The translations under genes and the position numbers were made by a program. From positions 1 to 49,521 of IMG/VR virus record IMGVR_UViG_3300044796_000384: a stretch of 49,521 nucleotides of DNA; one strand, 5' to 3'. This stretch comes from a virus. Below, piece by piece: positions 2,656 through 28,094 of this stretch. Each line of letters starts with the position of its first letter. Position 1 is the first letter of the stretch. The notes beneath the pieces are model-generated. The model searched no databases and was not told the origin of the DNA. It worked only from the letters and a program-made list of their open reading frames with translations.

Positions 2656-3663
2656 ATGAGCGTCATATCCGTTACCATTACAGCTTCATCGGTCCAAATA
2701 GTTTCGGGAATACCCGAATACGTTTCTTTATCCTCAAATATTCCTTGTTCTATTTTTTATACTCTTGATTGTTCAACGCCTACAACTTCTTCTAATATTT
2801 ATATCGGACCAATATATTTATCAGAAAAAAAACCGCCAATTACAATAAATATATTAGCAACAGATGGCGTTGATAGTAGTCCGATAATATCACAAACGTA
2901 TGTTGTAACAGGATTTGTTGGTGATAGAGTCCCGCACGCCACCGTAAAGCACTTAGATCAGCAAGAAGAAAATCGTCTCAATATATTTCCATTTGGCGAT
3001 ACATTTCAAGGCGTCAACGTAGAATACGGCGCTGTTGGTGGCATCACAGTAGATGATAATGATGGACACGGAATATTAGATGGATATGACGGGCAAGGTA
3101 ATGGAACGGTTGTAGCCGGTCAAACAGATCTGCCTTTGTATGATTATGATATGGTATATTCTGAGTCTAATTCGGAAGGTTTACGAGGATATGGCATAGG
3201 AACGTTGCCAGCGCAAGTTACTATTAGAGTTCCGCCATCTGCTTCTGCTAAACAACCTGAATCTTCTAACGTCAATAGTCCATTTTTTAACCCAAAAGCT
3301 TTGGTAATTTATCAAGATTCAAGAGATACGCCATTGGATCCGAACGCTCCAATAATAAATAGACAGTTTTTTTCATTAGAAAATCCTGAAACAACTAAAA
3401 CTGGCGCTTTATTATTTAATACCGGACTTGATGGAATGCAACCAACCGGATCTTTTGTAAGGTCTGTGTTTAATCCTAGCGATCAAACAATTACTTATTA
3501 TTATTTTGACTCGTCTACTTTGCGTTGGATTATCAGCAAAGAGCCGTATACGCCAAAAAACAGTAATATAGGAAATTATTCACAAATCACGTTATCTCCA
3601 AGAAGACAAGGAAACGGTATGGTTTTTAATTGGATGCCGTTCAAAGGATCCAGGCTCATTTAA
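2656..3663 (+). CDS. Probable virion protein with chitobiase-C-like beta module
   Basis: A 335-residue protein. Residues 34-54 match the chitobiase/beta-hexosaminidase C-terminal domain pattern: an FYTLD strand, STPT, then IYIGPI. This Ig-like beta module is common in phage fibres and adhesins and usually helps carbohydrate or surface binding. The rest is rich in Gly, Ser, Thr, Asn and Pro with short strands, has no long helix and no signal peptide, which suits a virion appendage or decoration protein. A good ribosome site (AGGAAAAA) precedes the ATG. It sits among DNA-metabolism genes rather than in the assembly block, so it may be transcribed separately. The domain is fairly clear; the virion role is inferred. 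Confidence 0.55.
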   Translation: MSVISVTITASSVQIVSGIPEYVSLSSNIPCSIFYTLDCSTPTTSSNIYIGPIYLSEKKPPITINILATDGVDSSPIISQTYVVTGFVGDRVPHATVKHLDQQEENRLNIFPFGDTFQGVNVEYGAVGGITVDDNDGHGILDGYDGQGNGTVVAGQTDLPLYDYDMVYSESNSEGLRGYGIGTLPAQVTIRVPPSASAKQPESSNVNSPFFNPKALVIYQDSRDTPLDPNAPIINRQFFSLENPETTKTGALLFNTGLDGMQPTGSFVRSVFNPSDQTITYYYFDSSTLRWIISKEPYTPKNSNIGNYSQITLSPRRQGNGMVFNWMPFKGSRLI

Positions 3664-3707: not shown

Positions 3708-3725
3708 ATATTATGGCCATAATAT
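3708..3725. promoter_or_regulatory. 18-bp perfect palindrome over the nuclease start codon
   Basis: Bases 3708-3725 read the same on both strands, centred on the GGCC that follows the ATG at 3713. A third related arm (CCATAATA, 3699-3706) lies just upstream, so the RNA could form either of two hairpins, and both would bury the start codon. It could be an operator or a translational switch. No Shine-Dalgarno site is visible. The structure is seen; any function is inferred. Confidence 0.4.
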
Positions 3726-4531
3726 TAGATAAGAAACCGGATAATAAAGAAATGCTTTCATTAAGCGTTTCTCGCGTTAAATGCTTTGATACTTGTAAAA
3801 AACAATATTATTTTCAATATATTGAAAAGTTGCCGTCCAAAGACTGGCAGCATCTTACCTTGGGCAAAATGGTTCACGAGGCTTTAGAAAAGTTTCATAG
3901 GGTGTTGATCGCCGACCAATCATTGCCATATAATAAAGTGATGACAGAGAGTTTTAACTCTGCGTTAAAAACATTTGCTTCTTCTTTATCAGAAGAGTCA
4001 AAAACAGAAAGTATAGAGATATTATCAAAATATATAAAGGTTCTTTCTGAACAAAAAAAGAAAGATTCCCTGCCGAAGTTTTTATCAGTTGAAAAAAACT
4101 TTTATATAGGCGTTGATGATACATTATTGATAAACGGTTTTATAGATCGAGTTGATATGTGTCAAGACGGTATGATAAAGGTGGCAGATTATAAGACCAC
4201 AAAAGATAAAAAATATTTACAAGATCCTTTTCAACTTATGACGTATGCTTATACGTTGTTTTTAGCAGATCCCTCTCTTAAAAAAATGAGGGGTTCTTAT
4301 ATATTATTGCGTCATAATTTTCAAGAAATTACAACAGAGTTTGATCGTGATACTGTTATAGAGACTGTTGAAAAAAAGTTTATAGATTATGCAGCAAAGA
4401 TCAGATCAGAAAAATTGTGGCGTCCTAATCCGCAGTTTCTTTGTAAGTTTTGCTCATTTCTTGATCATTGTCCAGAAGGAAAACAGCAGCAAGGTATAAT
4501 TGATTCAACACACGGAAAAATTGATTGGTAA
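3713..4531 (+). CDS. PD-(D/E)XK nuclease, Cas4/RecB-like
   Basis: A 272-residue nuclease of the PDDEXK_1 (Cas4/RecB C-terminal) type. Visible elements in order are the N-terminal LSVSRVKCFDTCKKQYYF, typical of RecB/AddB-like nucleases, GKMVHEALEKFH, the catalytic core FIDRVD (D145, D148) and VADYKTT (D159, K161), the helix with QLMTYAY, and a C-terminal cluster with C244, C247 and C253. With C28 (or C24) these could bind a 4Fe-4S cluster as in Cas4 and AddB. The expected activity is a metal-dependent exonuclease on DNA ends, suitable for making 3' single strands for UvsX. No cas1 or cas2 gene or CRISPR array is present, so this is recombination nuclease rather than CRISPR adaptation. It is 15 bases from the trigger factor gene. 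Confidence 0.85.
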   Translation: MAIILDKKPDNKEMLSLSVSRVKCFDTCKKQYYFQYIEKLPSKDWQHLTLGKMVHEALEKFHRVLIADQSLPYNKVMTESFNSALKTFASSLSEESKTESIEILSKYIKVLSEQKKKDSLPKFLSVEKNFYIGVDDTLLINGFIDRVDMCQDGMIKVADYKTTKDKKYLQDPFQLMTYAYTLFLADPSLKKMRGSYILLRHNFQEITTEFDRDTVIETVEKKFIDYAAKIRSEKLWRPNPQFLCKFCSFLDHCPEGKQQQGIIDSTHGKIDW

Positions 4532-4546: not shown

Positions 4547-5755
4547 ATGACAATAGAGTGTAACGAAGTAGAGTTTTGTAAGATGCAGATTCATTATCAA
4601 GCTGAGCCTGCCAAGGTAAAAGAGAAAAGACAAGAAGCGATTGTTCAATTTCGTAAAATCCAAATCCCAGGTTTCCGTAAAGGAAAAGCTCCTGATCAGG
4701 CCATTGAAATTAAATTAAAAAAACAAATTGATGATTATGTTAAACACGAAATGACAGTTGAAGCATACAATGATATAATCTATGAAAGCAAAATTAAGCC
4801 TATTGGACATCCACAAATAACTAAAATGGATTTGCATGATTCTAATTTTAGTTGCGATTTAATGGTTCTTAAAAAGCCAGATGTTGAATTAAAGCAATAT
4901 CGTGATTTTTCTATTCCAAAACCTCATCAACAATATTCTGTTGCTGAAATGGTTGAAAAAATGCTACAAGAACTTCGTGTCAAATTCGCTGACGTTTCTC
5001 CATATGGAGAAAATGATTTCGTCACAATCGGTGATAAAGTTACTCTTGATTGCATATGTCTGACTGACTCTTCTTTATCAAAAGAAGGTATATTATATGT
5101 TGTCGGAGATAAATTATTCCCAGAGTTTGATGACAATATTCTTGGGATGTCAGCCGGAGAAGAGAGAACGTTTAGTGTAAAAAATGTTGATGGAGCTGTA
5201 ATTGATTGTAAAGTTCTTATTCATATGGGAATGAGAAATACGCCAGCGGCGCTTGATGACTCTCTTGCGCAGCGCGCCGGATTTGAGTCATATGCTAAAA
5301 TGAGAGAAGCCGCTAATGGTATTGCTACAGGAAGAGCGCAGGAGCAAGAAAATCAAGCAATTTCGCAACAGGTTGTGAAAAGACTACTTGCTGAACACGA
5401 GTTTGAGATACCAAGCTGGCTAATTGCGGTTGAGGCCAAACAATTAGCAATGCAATCCGGCGCTGATTTTAGCAAACTACCCGATGAAAATAAAAACTAT
5501 TTTATTGCTGCTGCTAAAAGCAATGTAAAGTTGACGCTGATTTTAGACGAAATAAAAGATAAAGAGCCTGAAACGGTATTTACCGATATGGAGCTTATGG
5601 ATATTATTAAGCATCGTGTGGCCGCTATGGGACAAGATCCTGAAAAGTTTATTGTCGAGTCGCGTAAAGATGGAAGACTAATAAGTCTATTAGCCGCTCT
5701 GCGTTCAGAGGCGGTTTTAGAATGGATTGTAAAAAACAGCAAGGTGGTAGAATAA
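4547..5755 (+). CDS. tig: Trigger factor-like ribosome-associated chaperone
   Basis: A 402-residue homologue of bacterial trigger factor (about 430 residues in E. coli). The ribosome-docking signature GFRKGKAP is at residues 42-49, essentially the same position as the F44-R45-K46 motif of E. coli, within a basic N-terminal domain. The middle segment (about 140-230) corresponds to the peptidyl-prolyl isomerase (FKBP-like) position, with the pattern VTIGDKVTLDC and later FDDNILGMSAGEERTF. A helical C-terminal chaperone region follows (about 240-390). Trigger factor normally binds ribosomal protein L23 and shelters nascent chains. A phage copy could bias folding toward virion proteins. A GGAAAG-type ribosome site precedes the ATG, and the stop overlaps the next start (TAATG). 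The homology is strong; that the isomerase site is active was not verified. Confidence 0.85.
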   Translation: MTIECNEVEFCKMQIHYQAEPAKVKEKRQEAIVQFRKIQIPGFRKGKAPDQAIEIKLKKQIDDYVKHEMTVEAYNDIIYESKIKPIGHPQITKMDLHDSNFSCDLMVLKKPDVELKQYRDFSIPKPHQQYSVAEMVEKMLQELRVKFADVSPYGENDFVTIGDKVTLDCICLTDSSLSKEGILYVVGDKLFPEFDDNILGMSAGEERTFSVKNVDGAVIDCKVLIHMGMRNTPAALDDSLAQRAGFESYAKMREAANGIATGRAQEQENQAISQQVVKRLLAEHEFEIPSWLIAVEAKQLAMQSGADFSKLPDENKNYFIAAAKSNVKLTLILDEIKDKEPETVFTDMELMDIIKHRVAAMGQDPEKFIVESRKDGRLISLLAALRSEAVLEWIVKNSKVVE

Positions 5756-6063
5756 TGGTTAAAAATAAAAAAGATGACGGCAGCGAAGCTAATCAAAGCT
5801 CTTTTCCTAAAAAGTATGCAAGTAAGCTTCCTGATGGCTTTCAAGAGCAAGCTGACTCAATGTCAACAGAGGAATTAAAAAAGAAACTTGTTCAAGCGGA
5901 ACAGGTTATTTCCAGCACTGATAAAGATATGGAAAACGATTTGCGTCTTGAAGATGCAAAAAAGCAAGTGAAAGAGCTTTCTGCTGATTATAAAGAGACG
6001 ATAAATAGCTATCAAGCTGTAGTAAGATATATTGTTTATGTTCTAAATAATCGAGGCGTTTAA
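5755..6063 (+). CDS. Hypothetical protein, charged, helical
   Basis: A 102-residue hydrophilic protein of unknown function. The frame extends further upstream, but the ATG at 5755 is preferred because AAGGTGG lies just before it and it overlaps the trigger factor stop. The first 30 residues are polar and probably disordered. Residues from about 35 to 85 form a heptad-like helix (MSTEELKKKLVQAEQV and following), suggesting a coiled coil. The C-terminus is more hydrophobic (VVRYIVYVLNNRG). The next gene begins on the last base of its stop. Confidence 0.55.
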   Translation: MVKNKKDDGSEANQSSFPKKYASKLPDGFQEQADSMSTEELKKKLVQAEQVISSTDKDMENDLRLEDAKKQVKELSADYKETINSYQAVVRYIVYVLNNRGV

Positions 6064-6359: not shown

Positions 6360-6637
6360 TGGCTCTGAAAATTATTCCTTCCTGCTGTGGAAGTATAAAA
6401 TCTGTGCTCTCCGTGGACAAACCGATACGCAAATCTCAAATACAATTTTTTAGAGATGCGGGTTATTTTGTCCCGGATAGCTTTTACGCAGCAGGTATTT
6501 TTTATATTCAGCAAAAACAATTTATAGCTACCGCTTCGTTTGGAAGCACAAACATCAATATACAATGCAACGGTAAACAATGCGCAGAACAAATTGCCTC
6601 TTTTGAGGCAATTCTGCTGAAAGCTATACAATCATAA
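6359..6637 (+). CDS. Hypothetical protein, 92 aa
   Basis: A 92-residue protein of unknown function. Four cysteines are visible (CC near residue 9, and single residues near 70 and 75) but are not spaced as a standard zinc ribbon. The middle looks beta-stranded (FYAAGIFYI, QFIATASFG) and the C-terminus helical. It overlaps its neighbours by one base at each end (TAATG) and directly precedes the replicative polymerase, so a replication-linked role is possible but unproven. Confidence 0.5.
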   Translation: MALKIIPSCCGSIKSVLSVDKPIRKSQIQFFRDAGYFVPDSFYAAGIFYIQQKQFIATASFGSTNINIQCNGKQCAEQIASFEAILLKAIQS

Positions 6638-9600
6638 TGCAAGATTTTTGTTCACTTCATAATCATACAACATACAGCTTAATGTCTTCGTTAATAAAGC
6701 CATCAGAACTTTTTATTAAAGCAAAAGAGCTTGAGCAAACGTCTATAGCTGTTTGTGATCATTCTACACTTTCAGGAGCGTGGGATTGTTATAAATATTC
6801 CACAGAAGCAGGCGTTAAGCTTATAATTGGCTGTGAGTTTAATTTTGTTGAAGATTTATCTGCATCATCGGAAGATGTGCGGCTGCGTCATATTATTTTG
6901 TTGGCAAAAAACCATCAAGGATATAAAAATCTTTTAGCCCTATTAAAAAAAGCAAATGATAATAATATAATTGCCTTTAAGAAAGTTTTTCCAAGAATTG
7001 ATTGGAAATTATTAGAGCAATATCAAGAAGGCTTAATTTGCACGACGGCCTGTTGTTCAGGCATTCTTGGACAGCTAATCAATACAAAAAAAATAGACCA
7101 AGCAAAAATTGCGGCTAAAAGATTGAAAGATATTTTTGGTGACGATTTAGCTTTGGAAATTGAACCAAACGCCGTTAAACGAATAGCAAATGCATATAAT
7201 GATTATTGCGATCAATCTTTAACAAATCATCAATTGATTAAGCTCGGAGAAGAGCTTGATATAAAAGTAATTGCGGCAACAAATGCTCATTATATGAACA
7301 AGGAAGATTATGAAGCACAGGATGTTCTTTTAGCCATCGGTGCTGGTCAACCTGTGCGTTCGGGCGCGCGATTGAAATATAATAATGACTTTTATGTAAA
7401 AAGTCGTCAAGAGGTTCGTGACTTTTTTGCCCGTCTCTATAAAGAGAAAGCGGATCAATGGTGTGACAATACATTATATTTTGCTGACAAGTGCGATAGT
7501 CCAGATTGGATAGATCCGAAATACTCAAATCCGTCTGGTAAAGAACTACCAGAGTTTCCAGTAAAAGATCAACCAGATTTCAATCAATTCCAAAATTGGC
7601 TATTAGATCAGCCTGAAAAAATTAAAACATCTGATATTGACGTTGCATATTTAAGATTTTGGTGTGAAAATGGCTTCTCAAAAAAAGTGCCATTAGATAA
7701 AAAAGAGAAGTATCGTGAAAGATTAGAAAAAGAACTTGATACGCTTCAATATCAAGGGTTTTGTAGCTATATTTTAATTGTAGCGGATTATATAGATTAT
7801 TGTAAAAAGAATCATATTCCTGTTGGGCCTGGTCGTGGATCGTGTGGAAGTTCATTGGTTGGATATTTAACAGATATACATACCGCAGACCCGATAAAAT
7901 ATGATTTAATTTTTGAGAGATTTATCAACAAAGAACGTAAAAGTTATCCTGATATCGACGTAGATATTGCAACTTCTGGGCGTGAACACTTACAAGAATA
8001 CATACGTCAAAAATATGGTGAAGATAAGGTTGCACACGTTAGCAACGTAAATACAATGACGGCTAAGGTTTACGCAAGAGATTTGGCCAGAGCGTATGAA
8101 TTCGGTGGAGATAGGAAATCAGCCGTAGCTATTGGAACTATATTGGCAGATTCAATACCGGACGAGATAAAAACAATTGAAAACGCTCTTGAAGAAGCAC
8201 CGTTATTTGCGGCATTTGCAGATAAGCCAGCATATGCTCCATTAAAAAAATACGCCAAACATCTTTCTGGTAAAGCAAAGGCTTGGTCAACGCACGCTGG
8301 CGGTATAGTCATAAGTAAGCGGCCTTTGCAAGAGTTTATACCGTTACGTCGAGATAAAGACGGCAATGTTGCTATTGAATATGAAAAAGAGCGCGCAGAG
8401 GCAAATGGTCTCGTAAAAATGGATACGCTTGGCCTTGAAACTCTTGATATTATAGATACAAGCTATAAGCTGATAAAACTTAATGGTAAAACTCCTCCGC
8501 CAGAAGTATTAAACTATGATGATTGTGATAAAGACACATATGATTTAATCTCAAAAGGAGATACGTTTGGTGTTTTTCAATTTGGTGAAAGTCGCGGAAC
8601 TGTTGAATTGTGTAAACAAATACTACCAAACTGTATGGAAGATTTGGCGGTTATTACCGCGTTAGCACGTCCTGGTGTGCCAAAAGAGTTTAAGCAGCAA
8701 TTTATTGAGGCTAAATGCTCTGGTGAACAAGTTGAATTATTACATCCTTCATTAAAGCGTTCATTAGCAGGAACGTATGGTATTCCTGTTTTTGATGAAT
8801 GTATGCTTACATTAGGCGCCGATGTTGCGGGATGGGATCTAAACGAGTCTGATCGCCTTCGAAAGTTTATTAAAGACAAAGGCAAGCACCCAGAAAAAGA
8901 TGAAAAATTAAAGAAAGATTTTATAGCATCAACGATTGAAAACGGAATTACGCCAAGAATGGCAAATAGGCTGTGGGAAGAACTCTTTGTTAACTTTTCC
9001 GCTTACTTGTTTAACAAAAGTCACGCAATAACATATTCTTTTATATCTTATCATACAGCGTATCTAAAAGCACATTTTCCGTTGGAGTTCTTAACGGCTA
9101 ACTTAAGATCAGAAGTGCACTCGAATACTAAAAAAGCAGCAGGTAATATAATAAAGTTTAAGACAGAGATACGTAAATCAAAGGTAAAAATTATACCGCC
9201 GGATATAAATAAATCTGAAATGTCATATACAATCATTGATAATAATACTTTATTGACAGGATTAGATTCATTAAAGTTTATAGGAAATAAAGCAATTCCA
9301 GAGATTTTAGAAAAACGCCCATTTACTTCCTTCGAAGATTTCTTATCAAAGGTGGATGGAAGAAAAGTTACATCAAAAAGCGTGCAAGCATTAGCAGCGA
9401 GCGGATGTCTTGATTCGTTTGGTATGACAAGAAAAGCTATGTATCTTTATGCGTCGGACTATAAAAAGAAATTGCAGGTCTTCTTAAAAAGAAATAAAGA
9501 TAAAACATTTAACTATCTGTGGTCTGATGATATAAAAGAATGGACAATGCCAGAGAGATATGCTATGGAAATATTTTTCATTGGTGAAGGATTATCCGGC

Positions 9601-10269
9601 GATTTAATCAGCACATATCCGGGATTTTTCGATAATAAAGCAATCAATTTTGCTAAATTAGCGCAATTTTATCCAAAAGATGAGCCGGAAGAAGAAAGCA
9701 ATCCCTCAAAACGAGGCAGACCAAAGAAGGCAAAAAGACAAGAGTCTCAATCAATTTCCAGCTCTGTTGGAGTTGTAGAGGGCGTTGTAAAAGATTTTTT
9801 TGAGTTTAGAGTTAAAAAAGAAGATAGTAAGATTTTTGGACAAACAATGGGAAAGTTATCTCTTGAAGATACTTTTGGCAATTCTGTTTCTGTTACTATT
9901 TTCCCAGAAAAATTAAAAGACTTGCATAGCAGATTAAAACAGCTTGGCGGAAGTAAAATGAAGCTTGCTCCAGGCATAGCTTTGCATATAGCAGCATCAG
10001 CAAATTGGTATGAGGGAGAGATTTCATTATTATATGATGAGCTAAAAAAATGCACAGGACAGCCAGCTATGCCGGCCGATCTTTCAGCAAAGAAGATTTC
10101 TATGAGGATTTCCGGATCAAAGAAAAAAATTGATGATATATTAAAACAAGAAGAGGAAGACATTGACGAATTTGTTGAAGAGTTTGAGGACGAATTAGCA
10201 GAAGAAGGGCTTTCTGAGCTTGACGAAGACGGAAATGATCAATCAAATATACCTGACGCATTCGTTTAA
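6637..10269 (+). CDS. dnaE: DNA polymerase III alpha subunit (family C)
   Basis: A 1210-residue family C replicative polymerase, about the length of bacterial DnaE. Residues 1-200 are the PHP domain, starting with the metal-type pattern LHNHTTYS and then AVCDHSTLSG. The palm has GPGRGSCGSSL (about residues 397-407) and PDIDVDI at 438-444. The catalytic aspartates correspond to D441, D443 and, in LVKMDTLGLETLD, D596, so all three are kept. The fingers contain NKSHAITYSFISYHTAYLKA. A helix-hairpin-helix region (FTSFEDFLSKVDGRKV) and an OB-fold region (about 1010-1120) follow. The C-terminus is strongly acidic. It would copy the phage genome in place of the family A or B enzymes most phages encode. 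Proofreading may reside in the PHP domain, since no separate exonuclease gene was seen in the window. Confidence 0.95.
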   Translation: MQDFCSLHNHTTYSLMSSLIKPSELFIKAKELEQTSIAVCDHSTLSGAWDCYKYSTEAGVKLIIGCEFNFVEDLSASSEDVRLRHIILLAKNHQGYKNLLALLKKANDNNIIAFKKVFPRIDWKLLEQYQEGLICTTACCSGILGQLINTKKIDQAKIAAKRLKDIFGDDLALEIEPNAVKRIANAYNDYCDQSLTNHQLIKLGEELDIKVIAATNAHYMNKEDYEAQDVLLAIGAGQPVRSGARLKYNNDFYVKSRQEVRDFFARLYKEKADQWCDNTLYFADKCDSPDWIDPKYSNPSGKELPEFPVKDQPDFNQFQNWLLDQPEKIKTSDIDVAYLRFWCENGFSKKVPLDKKEKYRERLEKELDTLQYQGFCSYILIVADYIDYCKKNHIPVGPGRGSCGSSLVGYLTDIHTADPIKYDLIFERFINKERKSYPDIDVDIATSGREHLQEYIRQKYGEDKVAHVSNVNTMTAKVYARDLARAYEFGGDRKSAVAIGTILADSIPDEIKTIENALEEAPLFAAFADKPAYAPLKKYAKHLSGKAKAWSTHAGGIVISKRPLQEFIPLRRDKDGNVAIEYEKERAEANGLVKMDTLGLETLDIIDTSYKLIKLNGKTPPPEVLNYDDCDKDTYDLISKGDTFGVFQFGESRGTVELCKQILPNCMEDLAVITALARPGVPKEFKQQFIEAKCSGEQVELLHPSLKRSLAGTYGIPVFDECMLTLGADVAGWDLNESDRLRKFIKDKGKHPEKDEKLKKDFIASTIENGITPRMANRLWEELFVNFSAYLFNKSHAITYSFISYHTAYLKAHFPLEFLTANLRSEVHSNTKKAAGNIIKFKTEIRKSKVKIIPPDINKSEMSYTIIDNNTLLTGLDSLKFIGNKAIPEILEKRPFTSFEDFLSKVDGRKVTSKSVQALAASGCLDSFGMTRKAMYLYASDYKKKLQVFLKRNKDKTFNYLWSDDIKEWTMPERYAMEIFFIGEGLSGDLISTYPGFFDNKAINFAKLAQFYPKDEPEEESNPSKRGRPKKAKRQESQSISSSVGVVEGVVKDFFEFRVKKEDSKIFGQTMGKLSLEDTFGNSVSVTIFPEKLKDLHSRLKQLGGSKMKLAPGIALHIAASANWYEGEISLLYDELKKCTGQPAMPADLSAKKISMRISGSKKKIDDILKQEEEDIDEFVEEFEDELAEEGLSELDEDGNDQSNIPDAFV

Positions 10270-14395: not shown

Positions 14396-15022
14396 ATGGC
14401 AAAAAAGATAATGGGATTCGATATATCAAGCTCAACCGTTGGTGTATCAATATTGACCGTCAAAAGTGATGGTTGCGTCGAAATGACACACGCAGAATAT
14501 TTTAAGCCACCAAAAAAAGGTCATATTTTTGACAGATTATCAAAATTAAAAACATATGTAAAAAATATGCTTGACAAATGGAATCCTGATGAAATTGCCA
14601 TAGAAGATATTTTGATGGGTATGAGTGGACATATGACAACAATAAATACTATTGCCATATTAGCCATATTTAACAGGACTGTTGGATTGACGATATATGA
14701 ACATTGCGGTAAGGTTCCGCGCCATTACGGCCCAATGGAAATAAGAAGAGCGTTAGCGATAGATGATATTATTCCAGCAAAAGAGGATGTTCCAAGTTTT
14801 CTTGAAAAATGGTTAAAAATATCTTTTCCGTGGATTAAAAGTAAAAGAACAAATAAGCCTATTATCGAAAATTATGACGTAGCAGACGGAATTGCGTGCG
14901 CCTTATGTCATATTTTAATTGGCAGCGGCAGAGACGTTTTCCCGCCAAAAAAGATAAAAAAGAAGAAAAATATCGAGAAAAAGAACCGAAAGGTCTCCAA
15001 AAAAAGAGGCAAAAAATCATGA
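14396..15022 (+). CDS. RuvC-like Holliday junction resolvase
   Basis: A 208-residue RNase H-fold endonuclease of the RuvC family. The first acidic residue is D9 in MGFDISSSTVGVS, the second is E70 in IAIEDI, and the C-terminal pair is D161 and D164 in DVADGIACAL. All four catalytic acids are in the expected order and spacing. The final 25 residues are a Lys/Arg-rich tail that may hold DNA. It should cut four-way junctions made by UvsX-driven recombination and may resolve branches before packaging. The last bases overlap the dnaJ start (ATGA). Confidence 0.85.
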   Translation: MAKKIMGFDISSSTVGVSILTVKSDGCVEMTHAEYFKPPKKGHIFDRLSKLKTYVKNMLDKWNPDEIAIEDILMGMSGHMTTINTIAILAIFNRTVGLTIYEHCGKVPRHYGPMEIRRALAIDDIIPAKEDVPSFLEKWLKISFPWIKSKRTNKPIIENYDVADGIACALCHILIGSGRDVFPPKKIKKKKNIEKKNRKVSKKRGKKS

Positions 15023-16029
15023 ACGTGAGCGAAGCTTTCCGAAAGCTGGAATTAGATCAAAATGCTAATCCAAGCGAAGATGATATTAAAAAACAATTTC
15101 GCAAATTGGCGGCTCTTTACCATCCGGATAAAAATAAAGACCCCGGCGCAGAACAAAAGTCAAAAGAAATATCTGAGGCGTATAATACAATTAAAAACGC
15201 AAAAGATTCGCAAGGTAATTACGTATCAGCATCGTCTGTAGGTGATGTTCATTTTCAAGGTATGGATGATTTTTTTGAGAACTTTGTTGTCAATTTTAAC
15301 GGCCCATTTAGAAGAGCACAGGATTTTAGAAGAAGCCAGCCCGTAGAATTAAATGTTGTTATTTCTTTTGCTGAATCTGTTCTGGGATGCACCAAGAAAA
15401 TTGATATTGAAAAAGACGCCAGATGTGAAATCTGTTACGGAAAAGGATTTAAGCTTAAAGATAACTGTAAAGTTTGTAATGGCAAAGGGTTCATTATTCA
15501 AGAAGAGCAGTTTGATAAACAAAAATTAAAAGTAAAAACTCAGTGTAATAGTTGTAGCGGGCACGGTAAACACAAAGAAAACTGCTCTGATTGCGCTTCG
15601 TCTGGAGTTAAAAAATCTAAATTGTCATTAGATGTAAAATTACCAGGCGGTATTGTGACCGGGAATAAAATCCGGCTGGCCGGTCAGGGTAATTATATCA
15701 AATTAAATGGAACTGACTTTTATGAAGATGCATTTTTAACAATTAGTGTTATTAAAGAACACAATATGACCTTATTAGGATTAGATGTTATATCTAATAT
15801 TGAGATTACTTTTTTGGACGCATTGAAAGGTGCCATAAAAGATGTTAAAACTGTAAACGGTGATGCGCGTTTAACAATACCCGGTAAATCCAGAGATAAA
15901 GATCGCATAAGTATTTCTGGTGCTGGCGCAAATGGTAAAGGTAATCATATTTTTATATTGGATATTAAGTATCCAAATGATAATACGATAGACAAAATGA
16001 TAGAAATAATGGAAAAGGAATTAGTATGA
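15019..16029 (+). CDS. dnaJ: DnaJ (Hsp40) co-chaperone, zinc-finger type
   Basis: A 336-residue class A-like J protein. The J domain (residues 1-65) has the HPD triplet at 35-37 and the positively charged helix KKQFRKLAALY. The zinc region has four CxxC pairs at C136/C139, C150/C153, C176/C179 and C189/C192; the first three are canonical CxxCxGxG and the last is CSDCASSG, lacking the glycine pattern. A C-terminal substrate-binding domain follows (LSLDVKLPGGIVTGNKIRLAGQG is typical). The Gly/Phe linker is short. It should stimulate the ATPase of host DnaK and deliver substrates. The ATG at 15019 has AGAGG nine bases upstream and overlaps the RuvC stop. Confidence 0.93.
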   Translation: MNVSEAFRKLELDQNANPSEDDIKKQFRKLAALYHPDKNKDPGAEQKSKEISEAYNTIKNAKDSQGNYVSASSVGDVHFQGMDDFFENFVVNFNGPFRRAQDFRRSQPVELNVVISFAESVLGCTKKIDIEKDARCEICYGKGFKLKDNCKVCNGKGFIIQEEQFDKQKLKVKTQCNSCSGHGKHKENCSDCASSGVKKSKLSLDVKLPGGIVTGNKIRLAGQGNYIKLNGTDFYEDAFLTISVIKEHNMTLLGLDVISNIEITFLDALKGAIKDVKTVNGDARLTIPGKSRDKDRISISGAGANGKGNHIFILDIKYPNDNTIDKMIEIMEKELV

Positions 16030-17607: not shown

Positions 17608-17736
17608 ATAGTATCAGGACGTGTTATGAGCTGGTGAAAGCAGATAAGAAAAAAATAAATAATATAACAGCACCTATGATTAAATCTGCATTCATTTAGC
17701 AAATGATTATGATACCATTCATATTTGGAGCATTTA

Positions 17737-18258
17737 ATGAGTAAATTATTGAACAAGTTTGAGGTCGATTATACCTCATTGAAAGGCGTTTTAACCAAAC
17801 GTAAAGTATATAAATTGGCCGATGTGCAAAGTAAAATATCCAAAATAGGGTTTGATGTTGTGCGTTTTGCCGATCCTATCGATAATATTGATGGTCTTTG
17901 GAAAATAGAACATATGGCTGATGGCGATTATATTGTCGCTATGTATGGTGAAGGCGAGTCTGAACAGGTTAAAAAAGCAAGCAAATCATATGATTGGAAT
18001 GTAATTGCCGATAAAGCCGGAAAAAATCTAAATCTTTTCTATAAAGGCGCTCCAATTGTTCGTATTGCTATGGCCTCATTAAATATGTCTGACTCTGATG
18101 CGAATGAAGTTGCCAGCTATCTTCCAGAAAAATTGGCATCAAATGACAAGCTTGTATCCGCGCTAATGCAAGAAATTGCACCGGAAGAACGTAAAGAGTT
18201 ATTGACAAAATACCCCGAGCTTGGCTGCGCTTTAACGTCGCCAAAGTCTAATAAATAA
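17737..18258 (+). CDS. Hypothetical protein, 173 aa
   Basis: A 173-residue protein with no recognised family. The start at 17737 has GGAG six bases upstream; an in-frame TTG twelve bases earlier overlaps that ribosome site and is rejected. The first 75 residues look alpha/beta, with LWKIEHMADGDYIVAMYGEG as a likely strand pair. The C-terminal half is helical (EVASYLPEKLASNDKLVSALMQEIAPEERKELL). It opens a new set of genes after the sigma-like protein and is followed within nine bases by a much larger unknown protein, so both may belong to the virion programme. Confidence 0.6.
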   Translation: MSKLLNKFEVDYTSLKGVLTKRKVYKLADVQSKISKIGFDVVRFADPIDNIDGLWKIEHMADGDYIVAMYGEGESEQVKKASKSYDWNVIADKAGKNLNLFYKGAPIVRIAMASLNMSDSDANEVASYLPEKLASNDKLVSALMQEIAPEERKELLTKYPELGCALTSPKSNK

Positions 18259-18267
18259 TGAGGATAT

Positions 18268-19923
18268 ATGGATTTTGATAGACTAAATGAATTAGTTACT
18301 AAAACCGCTAAAGCACTTTACAATGATGAAGAGTTCATTGTTGGTGTCCTTGCCGTTCGCGCTAATAAAGCGGCTCAAGTTTGTCCAACCGATCAAACTT
18401 TGGTTGGTATGGCTAATTTTTTGAGCAAAAGAGCAAATATATCATCTTTAATAACAAGAGCTGAATTAAAGGATGTCTATAATAAGCTATACGTTCCCAA
18501 TAATAAGTTTGCAAGCGTTTTTTCTGATGAGTTGGGAGAAAAAGAAACGATTCGTCCAAAAGCAACAATAGCACGAGATCCTAATGAAGGATCCTCATCT
18601 CTTGTTGATAGCGCTTATGCAAAACTTGCAGATCCTTTATTAAGCAACGCTTTATCAAATATTTTTGATAAAAATGCAACTCTTAAATTATATTCAAGCG
18701 CAACAGCAGAAAGTGCGCAAAAAAGCTGTGCATTTGAGCTTAATCGTTGCGGCACGCCAGCAAAAACCATAGATGTGGTTGCTGGTCAAGCTGACATTTT
18801 ACTTTGCCAAGCTACATATGAAACTCCAAAAGGTGTTTCGCGCCTATTGATTCCAGTGGAGATTAAACAGGAAAAAGCTTTATTGCCGACTATGTTTCTA
18901 AGCCAAGCGGGTTTTGTTGACTTACAATCAAATCTTATTAAAGAGCATTTAGTATCAACCGCAGGAAAATCATATAAGGTTGATGTTAAAAAAGTATTAG
19001 AAGTCTTAGCCTCTGCTAAAAATGGTGTTCTTGAGACTGTCAGTGAGGTAGAAAGAATAGTTATAAAAACAGCATCTGTGCGCGGCACTCCTTCATCACA
19101 CGATTCTAATGGTATATTATACCAGCAAATTGATAATCCAATTCTTGACGTGCAAGAAGTAAAATATGAACAACCGCAAGAAGTGCAGGATTTTGCAACA
19201 CGTTTGTCTTCATCGGCTGGCATTGCAGAGTTTACACTTGGTAAAAATGCCGTAAACCTTGGAAGATCGCTTGTATCAGGGTTACTTTCTAGATTTGGAT
19301 ATAAAAACGCACAAATAGCGGTAGCTAATAGTGATGAAAATACTATTGTTTATGCTGTTGCAATTGAGTCCGGTTCAGGTTTTAAGGTTCCTGTTAAGAT
19401 TGATAAGCGCGGTAATATGCAAGAACCAAATGTTGTTATAGCCAACGGTCAATTATGCGATTTTACCAGAAGTGGTATTTCAGAGCTATTATCAAAAGAA
19501 AGCGCGAAAGACACTCGTGCTGCTGTAATGGCTTCACCAATGTATGATCTCAAACCTGCTGAACTTATTGCTCAGATAAAAGAAGCTATGCAAACAGACA
19601 ATTATCATAAAGCCGAGGATGCATTAGATATATTAAAACTGTCAAATGATGATAAGGCTTTTAGAGTAGGATATGAATTATATACACAAGGTCTCGCTAC
19701 AAATAAGTCATTGACAAAAGAAGCGAGCGCCAAAGATCAACAGTGCTGTTCGAGACAATATAAAACAGCCAATAGTAAATATGTAATATGCGGTCATACT
19801 AATCTTCCAGTTCATAAAGTATATCAAGATAAAAACGGAGATTGTCAACCATTATATCGCAAAGATATGAGTGAAACCTCTTCTGGCGGTTCTTTCTTAC
19901 ATTCTCGAATCTACTTAGGATAA
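18268..19923 (+). CDS. Large hypothetical protein with Cys-rich C-terminus
   Basis: A 551-residue protein that I do not recognise. The N-terminal part is helical and Ala-rich. The middle has repeated alpha/beta stretches. Residues around 495-535 carry cysteines (CC, then VICGHTNLPVHKVYQDKNGDC) that could form a zinc knuckle. No signal peptide or transmembrane segment is visible. GAGG lies just before the ATG. Its size, composition and place before other large unknown genes suggest a virion structural component, but that is inference. Confidence 0.6.
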   Translation: MDFDRLNELVTKTAKALYNDEEFIVGVLAVRANKAAQVCPTDQTLVGMANFLSKRANISSLITRAELKDVYNKLYVPNNKFASVFSDELGEKETIRPKATIARDPNEGSSSLVDSAYAKLADPLLSNALSNIFDKNATLKLYSSATAESAQKSCAFELNRCGTPAKTIDVVAGQADILLCQATYETPKGVSRLLIPVEIKQEKALLPTMFLSQAGFVDLQSNLIKEHLVSTAGKSYKVDVKKVLEVLASAKNGVLETVSEVERIVIKTASVRGTPSSHDSNGILYQQIDNPILDVQEVKYEQPQEVQDFATRLSSSAGIAEFTLGKNAVNLGRSLVSGLLSRFGYKNAQIAVANSDENTIVYAVAIESGSGFKVPVKIDKRGNMQEPNVVIANGQLCDFTRSGISELLSKESAKDTRAAVMASPMYDLKPAELIAQIKEAMQTDNYHKAEDALDILKLSNDDKAFRVGYELYTQGLATNKSLTKEASAKDQQCCSRQYKTANSKYVICGHTNLPVHKVYQDKNGDCQPLYRKDMSETSSGGSFLHSRIYLG

Positions 19924-19927
19924 CCCA

Positions 19928-20737
19928 ATGATATCAAAAGAATCACAAGAAAAATATGACGATACAAATAAGCTTATTAGTTTAATTGACGATTTCTTAG
20001 TTTCTTATTCTCATAACCCATTTGATTATTGTGGTCACGTTTTTAATATCGCAAGAAAATCATATAATTCAGATCTGCGCAAAATAGCCAAAACATTTGA
20101 TGCCGAAATAGAGGCGTTTACAACAGAATTGATGAAAAAGTTTGTTGAGCATTTACGTCTATATAGAACAAGCTCTAAAACAGTTTTATCAGAGGACTCG
20201 CAAATATTAGAAATGATTGCCGTATATGCGCACGAGCTTGATAATTCAGGAGATCCGGAGCTTATTAAAGAAGCTTCTGTTCTTGATGAGATTCTTTTAA
20301 CTCTTGCGGCGCCTCGTGATGCAAAAGAAGTTTTTAAGGCATCCGAAGATAAAGAGATAGAAAAATTAAAACAAAAATATAGAAGCGAAGCTCGTGATAA
20401 AGCATATACGCTGCCAAAAGAACAGCTTGATGATGATATTAAAACGGCAGATGCAGCAAAGGCTATTAAAGATTCAATTAAAGAATATCGCCCGCTTGAA
20501 TCTGCATTAAGCACACGCACCTGTCCTGATCATCCTGGCGCACAAATGGCAAGAATTGCTGACAATATGTATCAATGCGAATTGGATAAGAAGATATATA
20601 ATTGGGATAGCGGATTTACAACAATGCGCGGCGATAAAGTTCCCGGCGGTAGCGTATCAAATCAAACACAAATGCTTGGAGACCGTGCTATGGAGCACAC
20701 AAGTTTTGATACAAGAGAATCCAAGCTTAACCCGTAG
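19928..20737 (+). CDS. Hypothetical protein with C-terminal zinc-binding segment
   Basis: A 269-residue protein. The first 180 residues are helical and charged. The C-terminal 70 residues contain a possible zinc ribbon (TCPDHPGAQMARIADNMYQC followed by ELDKKIYNW) and a Gly-rich tail. No enzyme signature was seen. It follows the previous gene by four bases with AGGA in front and stops ten bases before the next start. Its role is unknown; a structural or adaptor protein is most plausible. Confidence 0.55.
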   Translation: MISKESQEKYDDTNKLISLIDDFLVSYSHNPFDYCGHVFNIARKSYNSDLRKIAKTFDAEIEAFTTELMKKFVEHLRLYRTSSKTVLSEDSQILEMIAVYAHELDNSGDPELIKEASVLDEILLTLAAPRDAKEVFKASEDKEIEKLKQKYRSEARDKAYTLPKEQLDDDIKTADAAKAIKDSIKEYRPLESALSTRTCPDHPGAQMARIADNMYQCELDKKIYNWDSGFTTMRGDKVPGGSVSNQTQMLGDRAMEHTSFDTRESKLNP

Positions 20738-20747
20738 AAGGTTCTGT

Positions 20748-21485
20748 ATGGATTTTTCCAATATTTTAACACATCCTGATAAAGAAGAATTATTAAGCAA
20801 ATTACTTACAGGAACTGCTCCCAAAGAGATAAATCAATGGTTGAGGCTTAAATATTCGGACAAAGAACAAAAACATTTAATTATTTCTGTAAAATGCTTG
20901 CAAGATTTTGCTAAAAGCGAATATTCTTCTATTTACAATCAATATACGCAAGAAATTACAGAATCAATTCAACGTGGTCAGCCTATAGATAAAAAAGTAT
21001 CAGAGTCTTTACTAAATAATAAAACGTTCAAAGAGCGCTTAAGCGAACACGCCTTAAAAGAGATAGATGTTCGTGAGCGCTTTTTGTCTATTGATCTAAT
21101 CATAAGAGACAGAATAGAGCAAGTTTTTGATAAAATGCAAGAAAATCCGGGAGGCTGGAAAGGCGATTACGTCATATTAAAATGGATAGAACAATATCTG
21201 AATATGGTAGAGAAATATGATAGATCTCAAAATAATAAACCAGATCAGCTAATACAGCATAATTATACGGTTCAATACATTGATCGTCAAACGGCAGCAA
21301 TACAAAATGCATTTAAGAAAGTTCTTTCAAGAGTAGACCCAGAACTTGCCCTAATGCTTACAGCAGAAATATCAAGAGAATTATGCTCGATAGAAGCTCC
21401 GGTAGAAAATATTACACAAAGCGTTGATGATAGGTTAGTTGAGATTCAAAGCTTGGAACGGTCAATTAAAACTGGAGAATCTTAA
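20748..21485 (+). CDS. Hypothetical protein with HTH-like N-terminus
   Basis: A 245-residue mostly helical protein. The ATG at 20748 is chosen because AGAAGG precedes it; the open frame upstream overlaps the previous gene. Residues 22-50 (LTGTAPKEINQWLRLKYSD and on) could form a helix-turn-helix like those in small terminase subunits, but the match is weak. The rest shows long amphipathic helices (SLLNNKTFKERLSEHALKE, YVILKWIEQYLNMVEKYD). It overlaps the next start (TAATG). A small terminase or a head or neck component are both possible. Confidence 0.5.
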   Translation: MDFSNILTHPDKEELLSKLLTGTAPKEINQWLRLKYSDKEQKHLIISVKCLQDFAKSEYSSIYNQYTQEITESIQRGQPIDKKVSESLLNNKTFKERLSEHALKEIDVRERFLSIDLIIRDRIEQVFDKMQENPGGWKGDYVILKWIEQYLNMVEKYDRSQNNKPDQLIQHNYTVQYIDRQTAAIQNAFKKVLSRVDPELALMLTAEISRELCSIEAPVENITQSVDDRLVEIQSLERSIKTGES

Positions 21486-23338
21486 TGCCAATAACTTCAT
21501 ATCTTAATGAAAAGCTACAAGAGAGAATCTCTAAGATACCAGAACTAAGTGATGAGCTTATAAAAGACGCAATAAACATGTCTAATATCGGCATCAATTC
21601 TGATAAAGAATATAATAATTTTTCATTGATCTTAAAACAATCTGTTTTTTTATCAAAAAGCTTATCAGAAAAAAAATTATCATTAAATGATATTATCAGA
21701 TTTGCCAGTATAATTTATACGAATATTGAATCTTATCCGATAAATACCAATTCTAATTTTTACAAAGCTTCAATAAATGCGCTAAATAAAATGAATATAC
21801 CTATTAAAAAAACGGCATATCCACAGGGCAGCAGTAATTTAGATACAGAAAGTCCTCATAATTTACAAAAATGGATGCAAGCTATGAGAGATATTTACGC
21901 TATGGCGCAAACATCGCTTATTGATACGTCAAAAGCTTTTGATATAATAACTAATAAATGGAATAAAATGGAACGACAAGATTTTAAGCACTGGATGTCT
22001 TTTTATGAAGAAAATGCGCATAATAAATATAAAACAGCGCAGGCTTCTGATAAAATAGCCGTCGGGCAAGAAAAATATTATTCCGCAGGCCCTGGCGCTA
22101 TGATTCCAATGGATCACTTAAAAGCAAGATTGCCGTCTGGACCAAATATGCATCAATTTGAGCGAGGCGATATTGATGAACAGCTTGCTAAAAAACAAGA
22201 AGAATTGGCGCAAAAAGAAATTGTCAATAAAAAAATAAGATCTATTATTAGCAGGCTAAATGCAGCTGAACGTTTAGCAACAGACCCCGCCGTACAAAAA
22301 GACCTGCAACAGTGCTTAGATATTGGTGTTCCAAAATGGCTTGAAGAATTACAAAGAGTGAAAAGACTTGTGCAATTAGCTCCTATGCGCAGTGCTTCCT
22401 CTCCAATACTTGAAGATTTGATTATTAAACAATCAAACATTTTAAGAAAAAAAGGATATCCAAAAGCTGCAAATGAAATGGAGAAATTAGCGCAGCAGCC
22501 GCAAGCTCAACCAAATGCCGCTGGTCCAAATACGTCTCCTGGTAATACAGGCGCTGACGATGATAAAGCTATAAATGAGCTTATAGAAGGTATGAATACA
22601 GAACAAGACAGCGGTGACGTGCTTGATATTAAAGATACCGAAGATGATCCGTTAGCCTCTATTACGATAATAGCACAAGCTATTCCTGAAAATCAAGATA
22701 TTCCTACAGCTGTACAAGAAAAATCAACTCAAAGAGTTGGGCCCGAAATCAATGTTTCGGAAGACGATCCTATGGAAGAAGAAGCTGCTGCTGCAAGAAC
22801 AGTTGTTGATCCAAGAACAGATGATTTATTTGAGGCGGCATTATCAAATGTTAGCGTTCGTGATGTTATTGTCAGATTAGAAACAATAGCAAATATTTTT
22901 AGAACAAGAGAAATACCTAGACAATTAGCGCTTATCGATTTAATGCTAGATCGATTGAACTTGTCTGCATTTTTCCCGTCTTTGGCAGAAGCGTCAAGCA
23001 AAACTCTTGAATCAAATCAGTATGCGTTATCGCGTATTGAAGATATTATCTCTAAATTACGCGGCTCAGTTGATACGCCGAAAGAGCACGAGCTTGATTT
23101 AGTTGGAAGAGGAACGCCGTCACGGCCAGCGCCAGAGAACGTAAACCCAGAGAAAATGCGCGCAAATCTTTCAAAGCAAGATGAGCTTGATAAAGCAAGA
23201 AAAGAGCGCCGTCAAGCCGAAGAAGATGCTAAAGCAACAGAAACCTTAAATCAATCAGCTCCTGAAATAACAAATGTTCCGGAAGAGTTAGCTCAACCTG
23301 CAACAATAACTCCTCAACCAGCAAGACCTGTAAGATAA
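21485..23338 (+). CDS. Large putative virion protein with helical module
   Basis: A 617-residue protein, unrecognised overall. The N-terminal 200 residues are helical. A linker with Gly/Pro follows, then another helical region with SSPILEDLIIKQSNILRKKG and YPKAANEMEKLA (about 302-333). This matches the helical hairpin module found in several assembly-region proteins (44497-48070). Residues 340-440 are acidic and low complexity (Asp, Glu, Ala, Pro), and a helical domain and a Pro-rich tail end it. No catalytic motif was seen. This composition is usual for large phage structural or scaffolding proteins. Confidence 0.55.
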   Translation: MPITSYLNEKLQERISKIPELSDELIKDAINMSNIGINSDKEYNNFSLILKQSVFLSKSLSEKKLSLNDIIRFASIIYTNIESYPINTNSNFYKASINALNKMNIPIKKTAYPQGSSNLDTESPHNLQKWMQAMRDIYAMAQTSLIDTSKAFDIITNKWNKMERQDFKHWMSFYEENAHNKYKTAQASDKIAVGQEKYYSAGPGAMIPMDHLKARLPSGPNMHQFERGDIDEQLAKKQEELAQKEIVNKKIRSIISRLNAAERLATDPAVQKDLQQCLDIGVPKWLEELQRVKRLVQLAPMRSASSPILEDLIIKQSNILRKKGYPKAANEMEKLAQQPQAQPNAAGPNTSPGNTGADDDKAINELIEGMNTEQDSGDVLDIKDTEDDPLASITIIAQAIPENQDIPTAVQEKSTQRVGPEINVSEDDPMEEEAAAARTVVDPRTDDLFEAALSNVSVRDVIVRLETIANIFRTREIPRQLALIDLMLDRLNLSAFFPSLAEASSKTLESNQYALSRIEDIISKLRGSVDTPKEHELDLVGRGTPSRPAPENVNPEKMRANLSKQDELDKARKERRQAEEDAKATETLNQSAPEITNVPEELAQPATITPQPARPVR

Positions 23339-24094
23339 ATGAAATTAAGCGAATTATTAAATCTTATTGCGCAGATTGCTGATGAAAAAGGCATTTCTAC
23401 GCCTGCAATCTGCGGAGGAACTCCTCGTGATAAGGTTCTTGGTAAAATAAGTGAGCTTAATGATATTGATTTAACAACAGGAGACCAGGGTATTCATTAT
23501 TTAGCAAAAGAAATTGCTATTAAATTGAAAGTTCAGAAATCTAATTATCTCGTTATGCCTGACGGACATGCAAGGATTTTAATTGGCGGCCTTAAATTAG
23601 ATTTTTCAAGCAATTTTAATATTCCAAATATAGATGAAATATTAAAAAAGAAAAATATAATAAATGCTGATAGCATGCAAAAAGAGCTGTATAGTCGAGA
23701 CTTTACATGTAATACATTACTAATGAGTCTTGATATGAAGCATATTTATGATCCTACTGAATTGGCCATTGATGATATAAAGAAGAAAATTATTAAAACT
23801 TGTCTTTCTCCGGAGATAACATTAGGATATGATCATAAGCGTATCGTAAGAGTTATGTATATGGCAGCAAAACTTAATTTTAATATCGCTCCTGAAATAA
23901 TTGATTGGGTGCGTAAAAATCCAAATACGTTCTCAAATGTTCCACAGGATTATTTAGTAAAAAAACTAAATAAAGCCGTAGCATATGATAAAGAAGCTGT
24001 TATTAAATTGCTAACAGAGATGAATCTATGGCCTTATGTGCCACCAATTAAAGAATTACAACCGGCATTATTAAAAAACTTAACGGAGAAATAG
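23339..24094 (+). CDS. tRNA nucleotidyltransferase / poly(A) polymerase-like protein
   Basis: A 251-residue class II nucleotidyltransferase of the CCA-adding/poly(A) polymerase family. The head-domain signature is intact: ICGGTPRDKVLG at residues 24-35 (family pattern GGxxRD), then DIDLTTG with the metal-binding pair D42 and D44, and later RDFTCNTLL (R120, D121; family RDFTINAL) and HIYDP. The following helical region has KRIVRVMYMAAKLNF, matching the family RxxRxxRFA region. It is shorter than bacterial CCA enzymes (about 400), lacking much of the body and tail. It might repair host or phage tRNA ends or act on another RNA. It begins directly after the upstream stop within a run of structural-looking genes. 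Confidence 0.8.
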   Translation: MKLSELLNLIAQIADEKGISTPAICGGTPRDKVLGKISELNDIDLTTGDQGIHYLAKEIAIKLKVQKSNYLVMPDGHARILIGGLKLDFSSNFNIPNIDEILKKKNIINADSMQKELYSRDFTCNTLLMSLDMKHIYDPTELAIDDIKKKIIKTCLSPEITLGYDHKRIVRVMYMAAKLNFNIAPEIIDWVRKNPNTFSNVPQDYLVKKLNKAVAYDKEAVIKLLTEMNLWPYVPPIKELQPALLKNLTEK

Positions 24095-25957
24095 ATGAAA
24101 AATAAAACGGAAAGATTGGTCTTTTTTAAGAATTATGATTATGCTGGATCAAAAGATAAAGCTGGTCCAGGGGAAGATTTATATCAAAATATGGCCAAAT
24201 ACAAAAGCGTTAAAGATTTTCTTGATAAAAAACACAATCGTAAAAAAAGAAAAAAAGCTATTGCTGCCGTCGTTCTTGATCTTGGTAAAAAATTGGAACA
24301 AAAGAAAGAAAAAAGTGAGCTTGAAACTATTAAAGACCAGTTACAAAAAGCTTTACCGATAGAAGAGGAAAAAGAAGAATCGACAAAAGAAGACGAACTT
24401 GAAACAATGCGTCGGAAAAAGATGTTATCAGAAGTGCATAAGGCTACAAGTGTATGGCAACATAGATTTTCCGCCGTTCGTAAAGACAATAAAGGATTTT
24501 ATATATTAAAGTCAGATAATGAATCTGGATCTTTAATGCGCGTTGGTGATACGTTATCTGATGAAGCAATCAATATGTCACCATATTGGCAAATATTATC
24601 TATAAACGGTAATCGTATTGATCTTAAACCGATCGGATCGAATCCGTTTTTAACTGGTGTAGGCGCTGGCGGTGCTAAATTGACACAATATGACATAGAT
24701 GTATTTACAGGCACCAATGAACAAAAAAGACTAGAACACGCGCAAAAAAAACTGGAACAAGGCAATGCCACAATTGACGATGTAAAATATATGCTTGAAG
24801 GAACCGTTCCAACAAATATGGGGCCGAACGGCGCTCAAGGCGGATGGTATTCTGCTACTGATACGAGAGCAAATCGCGGTGGGCGCAAAGGATTAAAACC
24901 CGAACAAATAGTCTTAAAAGACGCAATTAAATTAAAAGAGTTAGGTTTTAATGTTCCCGTTAAAGCATTAAACGGCACATTATCGCCAGAGAAATGGAAT
25001 AGCTGGATTGATGGCAGTGGTGACTCAGAGGAGCGCTCATATGTTCCAAAAGATCTTGAAAAATATGTTGATTTTCATAAACGTATGACGGAAAAAGGAA
25101 AATATAGATACGATCAAGATTCGTTAGATGAATTAAAAATGTCAAATAATCTTAAAATATTCAATGAATATTGGGAAGGGGTAATTGGCGATTTTACATC
25201 GATGTCAAAAGAAGAGTTTAAGCTTAAACATCCGTATAAACCGGATAACTTAAAAAGTTTAATAGGAATATACGAGCGTTATAAAGAACAATTGGAAGAA
25301 AAAATAAAAGGTAATAGCGATTATCTTATTGAAGGTGAAGACTATTCTTCTGAACAAAGCGTATTAAAACATATATTTAATACAGAGCGCCGTGTCTCTA
25401 TAAGAAATACAATTAGACTAATCGAAATGAGTAAAGAGGATCCAAAATATATTAAATATTTGCACGATATGATTAAGCTTGGAGGTTCAGACTGGTTTGC
25501 AAACGAAAAAGTATTGAACTTTTTTAATTTAATTGATGACGTTGATGGATTAAAATTAGGAGCTGAACATCTTAAAGACCCAACAAATATAAGATATGCT
25601 CTTGGACATCTAATGCAACAAGGTGAAGCTGATTATGTAATCTCAAAAGCAGAGCAAAATGGTAAAGATATGGATCTTGAAGTGCTTGATAGCGTTCTCA
25701 ATAACATTAAAAAACACTATGAAGCAGATGAACGAAAGAAATATGGAAGAAATGATTGGGTAATAAATTATGCAAAAAGACATAATTTGTTTGATAAACT
25801 ATCAGAATCTGCAAATAGCAAAAGTCCGCATTGGAAAATTGATGATATCATTTCGACAATTTTACATTCATTCGGGCCCAATAATTTTTGGGAGCCGGGC
25901 GATAAAGAACTTGTGGAAAAATATCATCTGTTATATAACAAAGTGCGCGGAAAATAA
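24095..25957 (+). CDS. Large hypothetical protein with basic N-terminus
   Basis: A 620-residue protein without a recognised family. Residues 40-125 are highly charged, basic then mixed Lys/Glu, and probably coiled coil. A globular part (125-290) includes beta-type stretches, such as GSLMRVGDTLSD, and a Gly-rich loop FLTGVGAGGAKL. The remaining 330 residues are helical and charged, with regular helix-turn-helix lengths resembling an alpha-solenoid. GGAG precedes the ATG. It lies between the nucleotidyltransferase and the ART-like gene. A virion-packaged internal protein is one option. Confidence 0.55.
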   Translation: MKNKTERLVFFKNYDYAGSKDKAGPGEDLYQNMAKYKSVKDFLDKKHNRKKRKKAIAAVVLDLGKKLEQKKEKSELETIKDQLQKALPIEEEKEESTKEDELETMRRKKMLSEVHKATSVWQHRFSAVRKDNKGFYILKSDNESGSLMRVGDTLSDEAINMSPYWQILSINGNRIDLKPIGSNPFLTGVGAGGAKLTQYDIDVFTGTNEQKRLEHAQKKLEQGNATIDDVKYMLEGTVPTNMGPNGAQGGWYSATDTRANRGGRKGLKPEQIVLKDAIKLKELGFNVPVKALNGTLSPEKWNSWIDGSGDSEERSYVPKDLEKYVDFHKRMTEKGKYRYDQDSLDELKMSNNLKIFNEYWEGVIGDFTSMSKEEFKLKHPYKPDNLKSLIGIYERYKEQLEEKIKGNSDYLIEGEDYSSEQSVLKHIFNTERRVSIRNTIRLIEMSKEDPKYIKYLHDMIKLGGSDWFANEKVLNFFNLIDDVDGLKLGAEHLKDPTNIRYALGHLMQQGEADYVISKAEQNGKDMDLEVLDSVLNNIKKHYEADERKKYGRNDWVINYAKRHNLFDKLSESANSKSPHWKIDDIISTILHSFGPNNFWEPGDKELVEKYHLLYNKVRGK

Positions 25958-26754: not shown

Positions 26755-26804
26755 AAACAATCAATATATCGATATAATGTAAGAATCTTTGATTTGAGGC
26801 AAAA

Positions 26805-27749: not shown

Positions 27750-27756
27750 TTATTAT

Positions 27757-27954
27757 ATGCAAAATGATCTGGCGGCGTTTCAACAAGCATATTTACAAAA
27801 AGTTAGCGAAGAAAAAGCAGAGGACGAATTAAGCGATCAACACGATTTTGATTCAATTCTTGATGAGATCTCTTCGCTTGGTGAAGACGCCGATCCATAT
27901 GAGCTTCTTAATAGCATTGACAAATTGCGAAAAATAGTTTTTGGAAAAATATGA
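27757..27954 (+). CDS. Small acidic hypothetical protein, 65 aa
   Basis: A 65-residue acidic helical protein. The ATG at 27757 follows the previous stop by seven bases; an in-frame ATG at 27718 lies inside the upstream gene. Neither start has a clear ribosome site, so translational coupling is likely. The sequence consists of two predicted helices around an acidic centre. The stop overlaps the next small start (ATGA). Function unknown. Confidence 0.5.
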   Translation: MQNDLAAFQQAYLQKVSEEKAEDELSDQHDFDSILDEISSLGEDADPYELLNSIDKLRKIVFGKI

Positions 27955-28094
27955 TTGAGCAAGATCTAAATGCATTAAAACAAAAAATAGACAATGGAGA
28001 AGAGATTCTCACCATCAAGCACGTATATGATTTAAGCGAAGAAGAGATGCGAAAGCTTTTGGATTTGTGCGAAGGAACTTATGAAAATCAATAA
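27951..28094 (+). CDS. Very small gene, 47 aa
   Basis: A 47-codon frame from ATG 27951, overlapping the previous stop by ATGA, to TAA at 28092-28094, overlapping the start of the next gene by 14 bases. The product is acidic and fully helical in appearance (MIEQDLNALKQKIDNGEEIL, then YDLSEEEMRKLLDL). It exactly fills the gap between two genes and its codon use looks like that of its neighbours, so it is probably real. Function unknown. Confidence 0.55.
   Translation: MIEQDLNALKQKIDNGEEILTIKHVYDLSEEEMRKLLDLCEGTYENQ

Follow-up and report, generated by a model that had tools for sequence, protein, structure and literature searches.

A lineage of huge phages carries a genuine full-length trigger factor (TF) as a fixed, syntenic gene. 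Trigger factor is a bacterial chaperone posted at the ribosome mouth; the phage protein is homologous to it, shares its domain architecture and keeps its ribosome-docking loop intact. The gene lies in a clear phage context and is under purifying selection, and the peptidyl-prolyl isomerase (PPIase) site of its product is eroded. We found it in a linear virus record from IMG/VR (49,521 bases, probably a fragment), which is referred to below as the window (Table 1). Trigger factor itself is already known; for a variant of it that is fixed in a phage lineage, no earlier report was found in the open-access papers searched.

Table 1. Features of the window discussed in the text.
Feature	Position	Strand	Evidence
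PD-(D/E)XK nuclease, syntenic neighbor upstream of TF	3713..4531	+	Pfam PDDEXK_1, E 3.7e-29
Phage trigger factor, 402 aa	4547..5755	+	Pfam, TIGR00115, AlphaFold2 model, VIA-align
GFRKGKAP ribosome-docking loop, residues 42-49	4670..4693	+	Sequence; F and R identical in 52/52 viral TFs
FKBP-like middle domain, residues 154-234, eroded PPIase pocket	5006..5248	+	Model fold; pocket residues substituted or lost
Small ORF overlapping the TF stop, kept in 33 loci		5722..6063	+	ORF list, synteny
DNA polymerase III alpha, syntenic neighbor downstream of TF	6637..10269	+	Pfam, PHROG, synteny
DnaJ co-chaperone: J domain, zinc domain, DnaJ_C	15022..16029	+	Domain matches
Large terminase, phage hallmark	28766..30694	+	Family match; matched in relatives
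Portal protein, phage hallmark	32810..34642	+	Family match; matched in relatives

The TF gene is an intact open reading frame with an ATG start, and the Shine-Dalgarno-like sequence AAAGGA lies ahead of it at a fitting distance. Its product matches Pfam Trigger_N (E 1.4e-22; 80.9 bits against a cut-off of 22.2) and Trigger_C, the C-terminal chaperone/arms domain (E 6.2e-12; 46.3 bits against 22.7), and passes the NCBI "tig" equivalog TIGR00115 (187.8 bits; cut-off 180.2). Solved TF structures were also matched with phmmer (best E 4.2e-12), the E. coli protein 1w26 at E 3.6e-11. Given these scores, the assignment cannot be attributed to chance.

An AlphaFold2 model, computed from an alignment of 25 viral TFs, had a mean pLDDT of 87.7 and a pTM of 0.64, so the arrangement of its domains is uncertain. 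The top 14 Foldseek matches to the model were all trigger factors. VIA-align superposed it on the full chain of 1w26 with a Z score of 21.2 over 391 residues and an rmsd of 6.8 Å, a deviation that probably reflects domain arrangement, and on the isolated ribosome-binding domain 1oms with a Z score of 13.3 (2.2 Å, 114 residues aligned); the middle domain matched FKBP and SlyD folds (Z 9-11). The initial annotation had called the gene a full-length phage trigger factor, and the profile scores together with the full-chain match bear this out. It had also named the lack of a TF ribosome-binding fold as an outcome that would refute the claim; the predicted structure has this fold, and the claim thus passes that test.

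The same annotation had pointed to the GFRKGKAP signature and its position, correctly: the corresponding E. coli motif is GFRKGKVP at residues 43-50. The third position of the loop is K or P in the viral proteins, as in bacteria. Conservation of the docking loop is typical of TFs as a whole and tells nothing specific about infection. In six viral TFs (L040, L041, L043, L046, L050 and L053), the ribosome-binding domain is preceded by an extra N-terminal stretch of about 20-95 residues, which in several of them finishes in a YPI motif; the start codons of these six are unverified.

The alignment indicates that the PPIase pocket has eroded in viral TFs, most strongly in the window copy. The column of E. 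coli Y221 is a gap in 42 of the 46 group 1 sequences (groups are defined below), and Y221 and F233 are both present in 6/6 group 2 sequences. Because Y221 is also missing from 4 of the 11 bacterial rows, the absence of this residue by itself is not peculiar to phages. The window protein has further pocket changes (F168C, deletion of F177, F233C) and retains F198. From mutants of the E. coli protein, we take F198 and F233 to be important for PPIase activity; with F198 kept, some residual isomerase activity is possible. Pfam FKBP_C found no match in the window TF; three relatives (L015, L016 and L026) do match it. As far as activity can be inferred from sequence, prolyl isomerization is probably reduced or lost in the window copy.

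Other phage genes in the window include those for a head-protease-like protein, UvsX-like and RuvC-like proteins, a primase and a PhoH-like protein. The TF gene starts 15 nt past the nuclease gene and overlaps the next ORF, which has no assigned function, by 34 nt, from which we infer that TF and the replication genes likely form one operon. Three further observations concern the same record. An ORF at 2656-3663 (335 aa, chitobiase C-terminal/Fn3-associated domains), located between a dNMP kinase gene and the nuclease gene, is kept at the same place in 51 loci, which is odd for a replication block. A tyrosine/dual-specificity phosphatase-like gene lies among the structural genes (39104-39916; Y_phosphatase2 E 8e-15). 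The roughly 11 kb that separate the terminase gene from the replication block (17725-28701) consist mostly of large ORFs with almost no family matches, the exception being a tRNA nucleotidyltransferase gene at 23339-24094.

A single-sequence scan of viral contigs for TF returned no matches; an alignment query was needed, and with it we identified 60 TF-encoding loci in IMG/VR. Group 1 comprises 45 viral TFs that are 33-46% identical to the window protein, and group 2 comprises six (L056, L057, L058, L060, L062 and L065) with 20-25% identity. The nine remaining loci lack the synteny and look bacterial, with clpP and clpX alongside in three. Both viral groups share the gene order SbcC-like, ORF 2656, PDDEXK, TF and PolIII alpha; the dNMP kinase gene and several small ORFs at the locus were seen in group 1 only. 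We define the lineage here by the window terminase, portal and gene order, and no formally named clade is implied. In a comparison of 47 records from TF loci, the window terminase was matched in 32 (identity mostly 48-57%, about 40-42% in group 2) and the portal likewise in 32 (identity up to 69%). Contigs with TF are longer than 300 kb in eleven cases, with a maximum of 481 kb. In-frame inserts of about 1 kb occur in the portal protein of six records of the lineage and in the terminase of five, the window copies being free of them; they look like inteins, since the two tested, L263 (G009:C1:5440-6615) and L264 (G029:C1:30019-31044), carry LAGLIDADG homing-endonuclease domains.

Fixation was assessed with relatives recruited by the portal protein rather than by TF, which avoids bias. 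TF was present in 14 of the 27 records so obtained (at least 27.8 kb each), in each case 0.6-2.0 kb upstream of PolIII alpha, and all 14 records that extend past PolIII alpha carry it. The expected TF site is at least 24 kb upstream of the portal gene, and in the other 13 records PolIII alpha is missing or terminal on the contig, which stops before that site; none of these 13 is therefore a clear absence. Close TF pairs gave dN/dS values of about 0.05-0.13, which are rough because dS approaches saturation in some of them. The fixation of TF in a phage lineage indicates a strong need for it.

TF is accompanied by a second folding factor. The DnaJ gene that had been proposed downstream has all three of the domains given in Table 1, and a DnaJ domain was found in each of the 15 long relatives tested, fourteen of them longer than 250 kb; the lineage carries TF and DnaJ as a pair. 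Searches for Cpn60 and HSP70 in the same 15 relatives found neither, while the positive controls were matched, on linear contigs that may be incomplete. On this evidence, the lineage would depend on the host for DnaK and GroEL.

The origin of the viral TF is only partly resolved. A phylogeny had been suggested as a test of host origin, and in our tree of 64 rows, which samples Actinomycetota, Acidobacteriota, Bacillota, Chloroflexota, Nitrospirota, Pseudomonadota, Verrucomicrobiota and others without Bacteroidota and several other phyla, group 1 is a clade of its own (SH-aLRT 100), as is group 2 (97). The two adjoin, with a support of only 23 for the joining branch, and none of the phyla sampled is sister to the viral sequences, so the host origin remains unresolved and assignment of a host by the TF tree was dropped. 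In a genome scan, bacterial TFs were at most 30% identical to the window TF over local segments among the matches listed; no close bacterial relative of group 1 was among these matches, and a closer one is not excluded. One old acquisition is the simplest reading, suggested by the gene position that the two groups share and not proven by the tree.

Huge phages with TF probably influence the folding of newly made proteins during infection. The reading that we favor, and consider likely, is that a TF fixed in the phage genome is kept by selection as an L23-docked, ATP-independent holdase and that the phage DnaJ hands clients to host DnaK. The protein would probably be co-expressed with the phage replication genes, its GFRKGK loop would dock on L23 where the host ribosome's exit tunnel opens, and there it would cradle nascent chains without ATP during phage protein production, supplementing or displacing any TF that the host may have. 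Phage DnaJ might then deliver clients to host DnaK, a hand-over proposed because neither an Hsp70 nor a chaperonin was found in the lineage. Co-expression, ribosome binding, chaperone activity, competition with host TF and hand-over to DnaK are all inferences, with no expression or binding experiment behind them. A more far-reaching version, which we put forward only tentatively, is a two-part system in which docked TF with little or no isomerase activity and DnaJ together replace host TF on ribosomes during infection and redirect host DnaK toward phage clients, so that controlling the exit tunnel would be a fixed element of how the lineage infects.

Phage TF on L23 might instead act mainly as a decoy or blocker, displacing host TF, SRP or processing enzymes and disturbing the maturation of host proteins, with little chaperoning of phage proteins. 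No feature is conserved more strongly than the docking loop, the PPIase pocket being eroded, and mean identity is 46% in the helix-loop region against 33% in the C-terminal domain. However, the C-terminal chaperone domain is full length in all viral members and passes Trigger_C, although a pure blocker could shed it, and DnaJ is fixed alongside TF; we consider this explanation unlikely. We also give little credence to a soluble assembly chaperone that would serve phage structural or replication proteins independently of the ribosome. TF is reported to bind folded clients off the ribosome as well (3gty; PMC10539794), and the phage gene is located within a replication block, but strict conservation of the docking loop in 52/52 viral proteins argues for continued selection on ribosome binding. 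We discard a recent chance acquisition of a host gene, or assembly contamination, with no selected role: bacterial contamination does exist in the same databases, but synteny and fixation refute this explanation, the gene being at the same site in dozens of diverged phage contigs that also carry terminase and portal genes, under purifying selection and without a close bacterial relative among the matches listed.

At the exit tunnel, nascent chains have their first contact with chaperones and processing enzymes. The translation components known from huge phages cover most steps of the process, but we found no report of phage control at the exit tunnel. The viral TFs, diverged and with an eroded PPIase site, also make up a natural set with which the importance of individual TF functions can be explored, and the gene can serve as a marker for this huge-phage lineage.

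The initial annotation knew of no well-studied phage example, and we found none in the open-access literature; most subscription papers, supplements and preprints were outside the search, so a phage TF may already have been listed there. According to a virome study of the Southern Ocean, no TF analogue was detected (PMC8407431). A paper that joins "jumbo phage" and "trigger factor" was rejected as a precedent, since TF is only a solubility tag there. The four GenBank "phage" TFs that we opened are mislabelled bacterial contigs: tig lies beside clpP in CAKLQH020000005, MT835536 and MT835572, with clpX as well in the first and third, and the TF of the phage-labelled MT835782 is among bacterial-looking genes. 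Such records would mislead surveys of phage TFs. The only PHROG match of the window TF, PHROG 26774 (listed as of unknown function), was also rejected as a phage TF family; E. coli Tig scores 407 bits over its full length, against 75-105 bits for group 1 and 207 for group 2, and this far better fit suggests that it was probably built from bacterial-type sequences.

Among known systems, huge phages encode initiation and elongation factors, ribosomal proteins and peptide deformylase (Al-Shayeb et al. 2020, PMC7162821), phage-encoded parts that redirect host translation as phage TF might; the main text of that paper mentions neither a trigger factor nor a chaperone. By portal protein, the closest relative found in culture is Bacillus phage G (32.5% identity over 72%), which also has a huge genome (497 kb); unlike the window lineage, it has no Trigger_N match in its genome, nor has virus Rctr197k. 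Phage TF shares with bacterial TF (Tig; TIGR00115; E. coli 1w26) the three-domain architecture, with the FKBP-like middle part recognized from the modelled fold, the GFRxGK loop, the full-length fold and a score above the equivalog cut-off. It differs in an identity of only about 20-25% with the sampled bacterial TFs (best local segments up to 30% among the matches listed), in its location in a phage replication block rather than beside clpP-clpX, in the deletion of the PPIase flap with Y221 in most phage members and in forming a clade of its own. Chloroplast Tig2 and extra bacterial TF homologues resemble it in that some TF functions are kept and others lost. In the extra bacterial copies, the N-terminal domain that binds the ribosome is reported to be missing (PMC11559001), and Tig2 is described as a truncated form (PMC11731035), whereas phage TF retains all three domains, the middle one by predicted fold, with erosion confined to the PPIase site.
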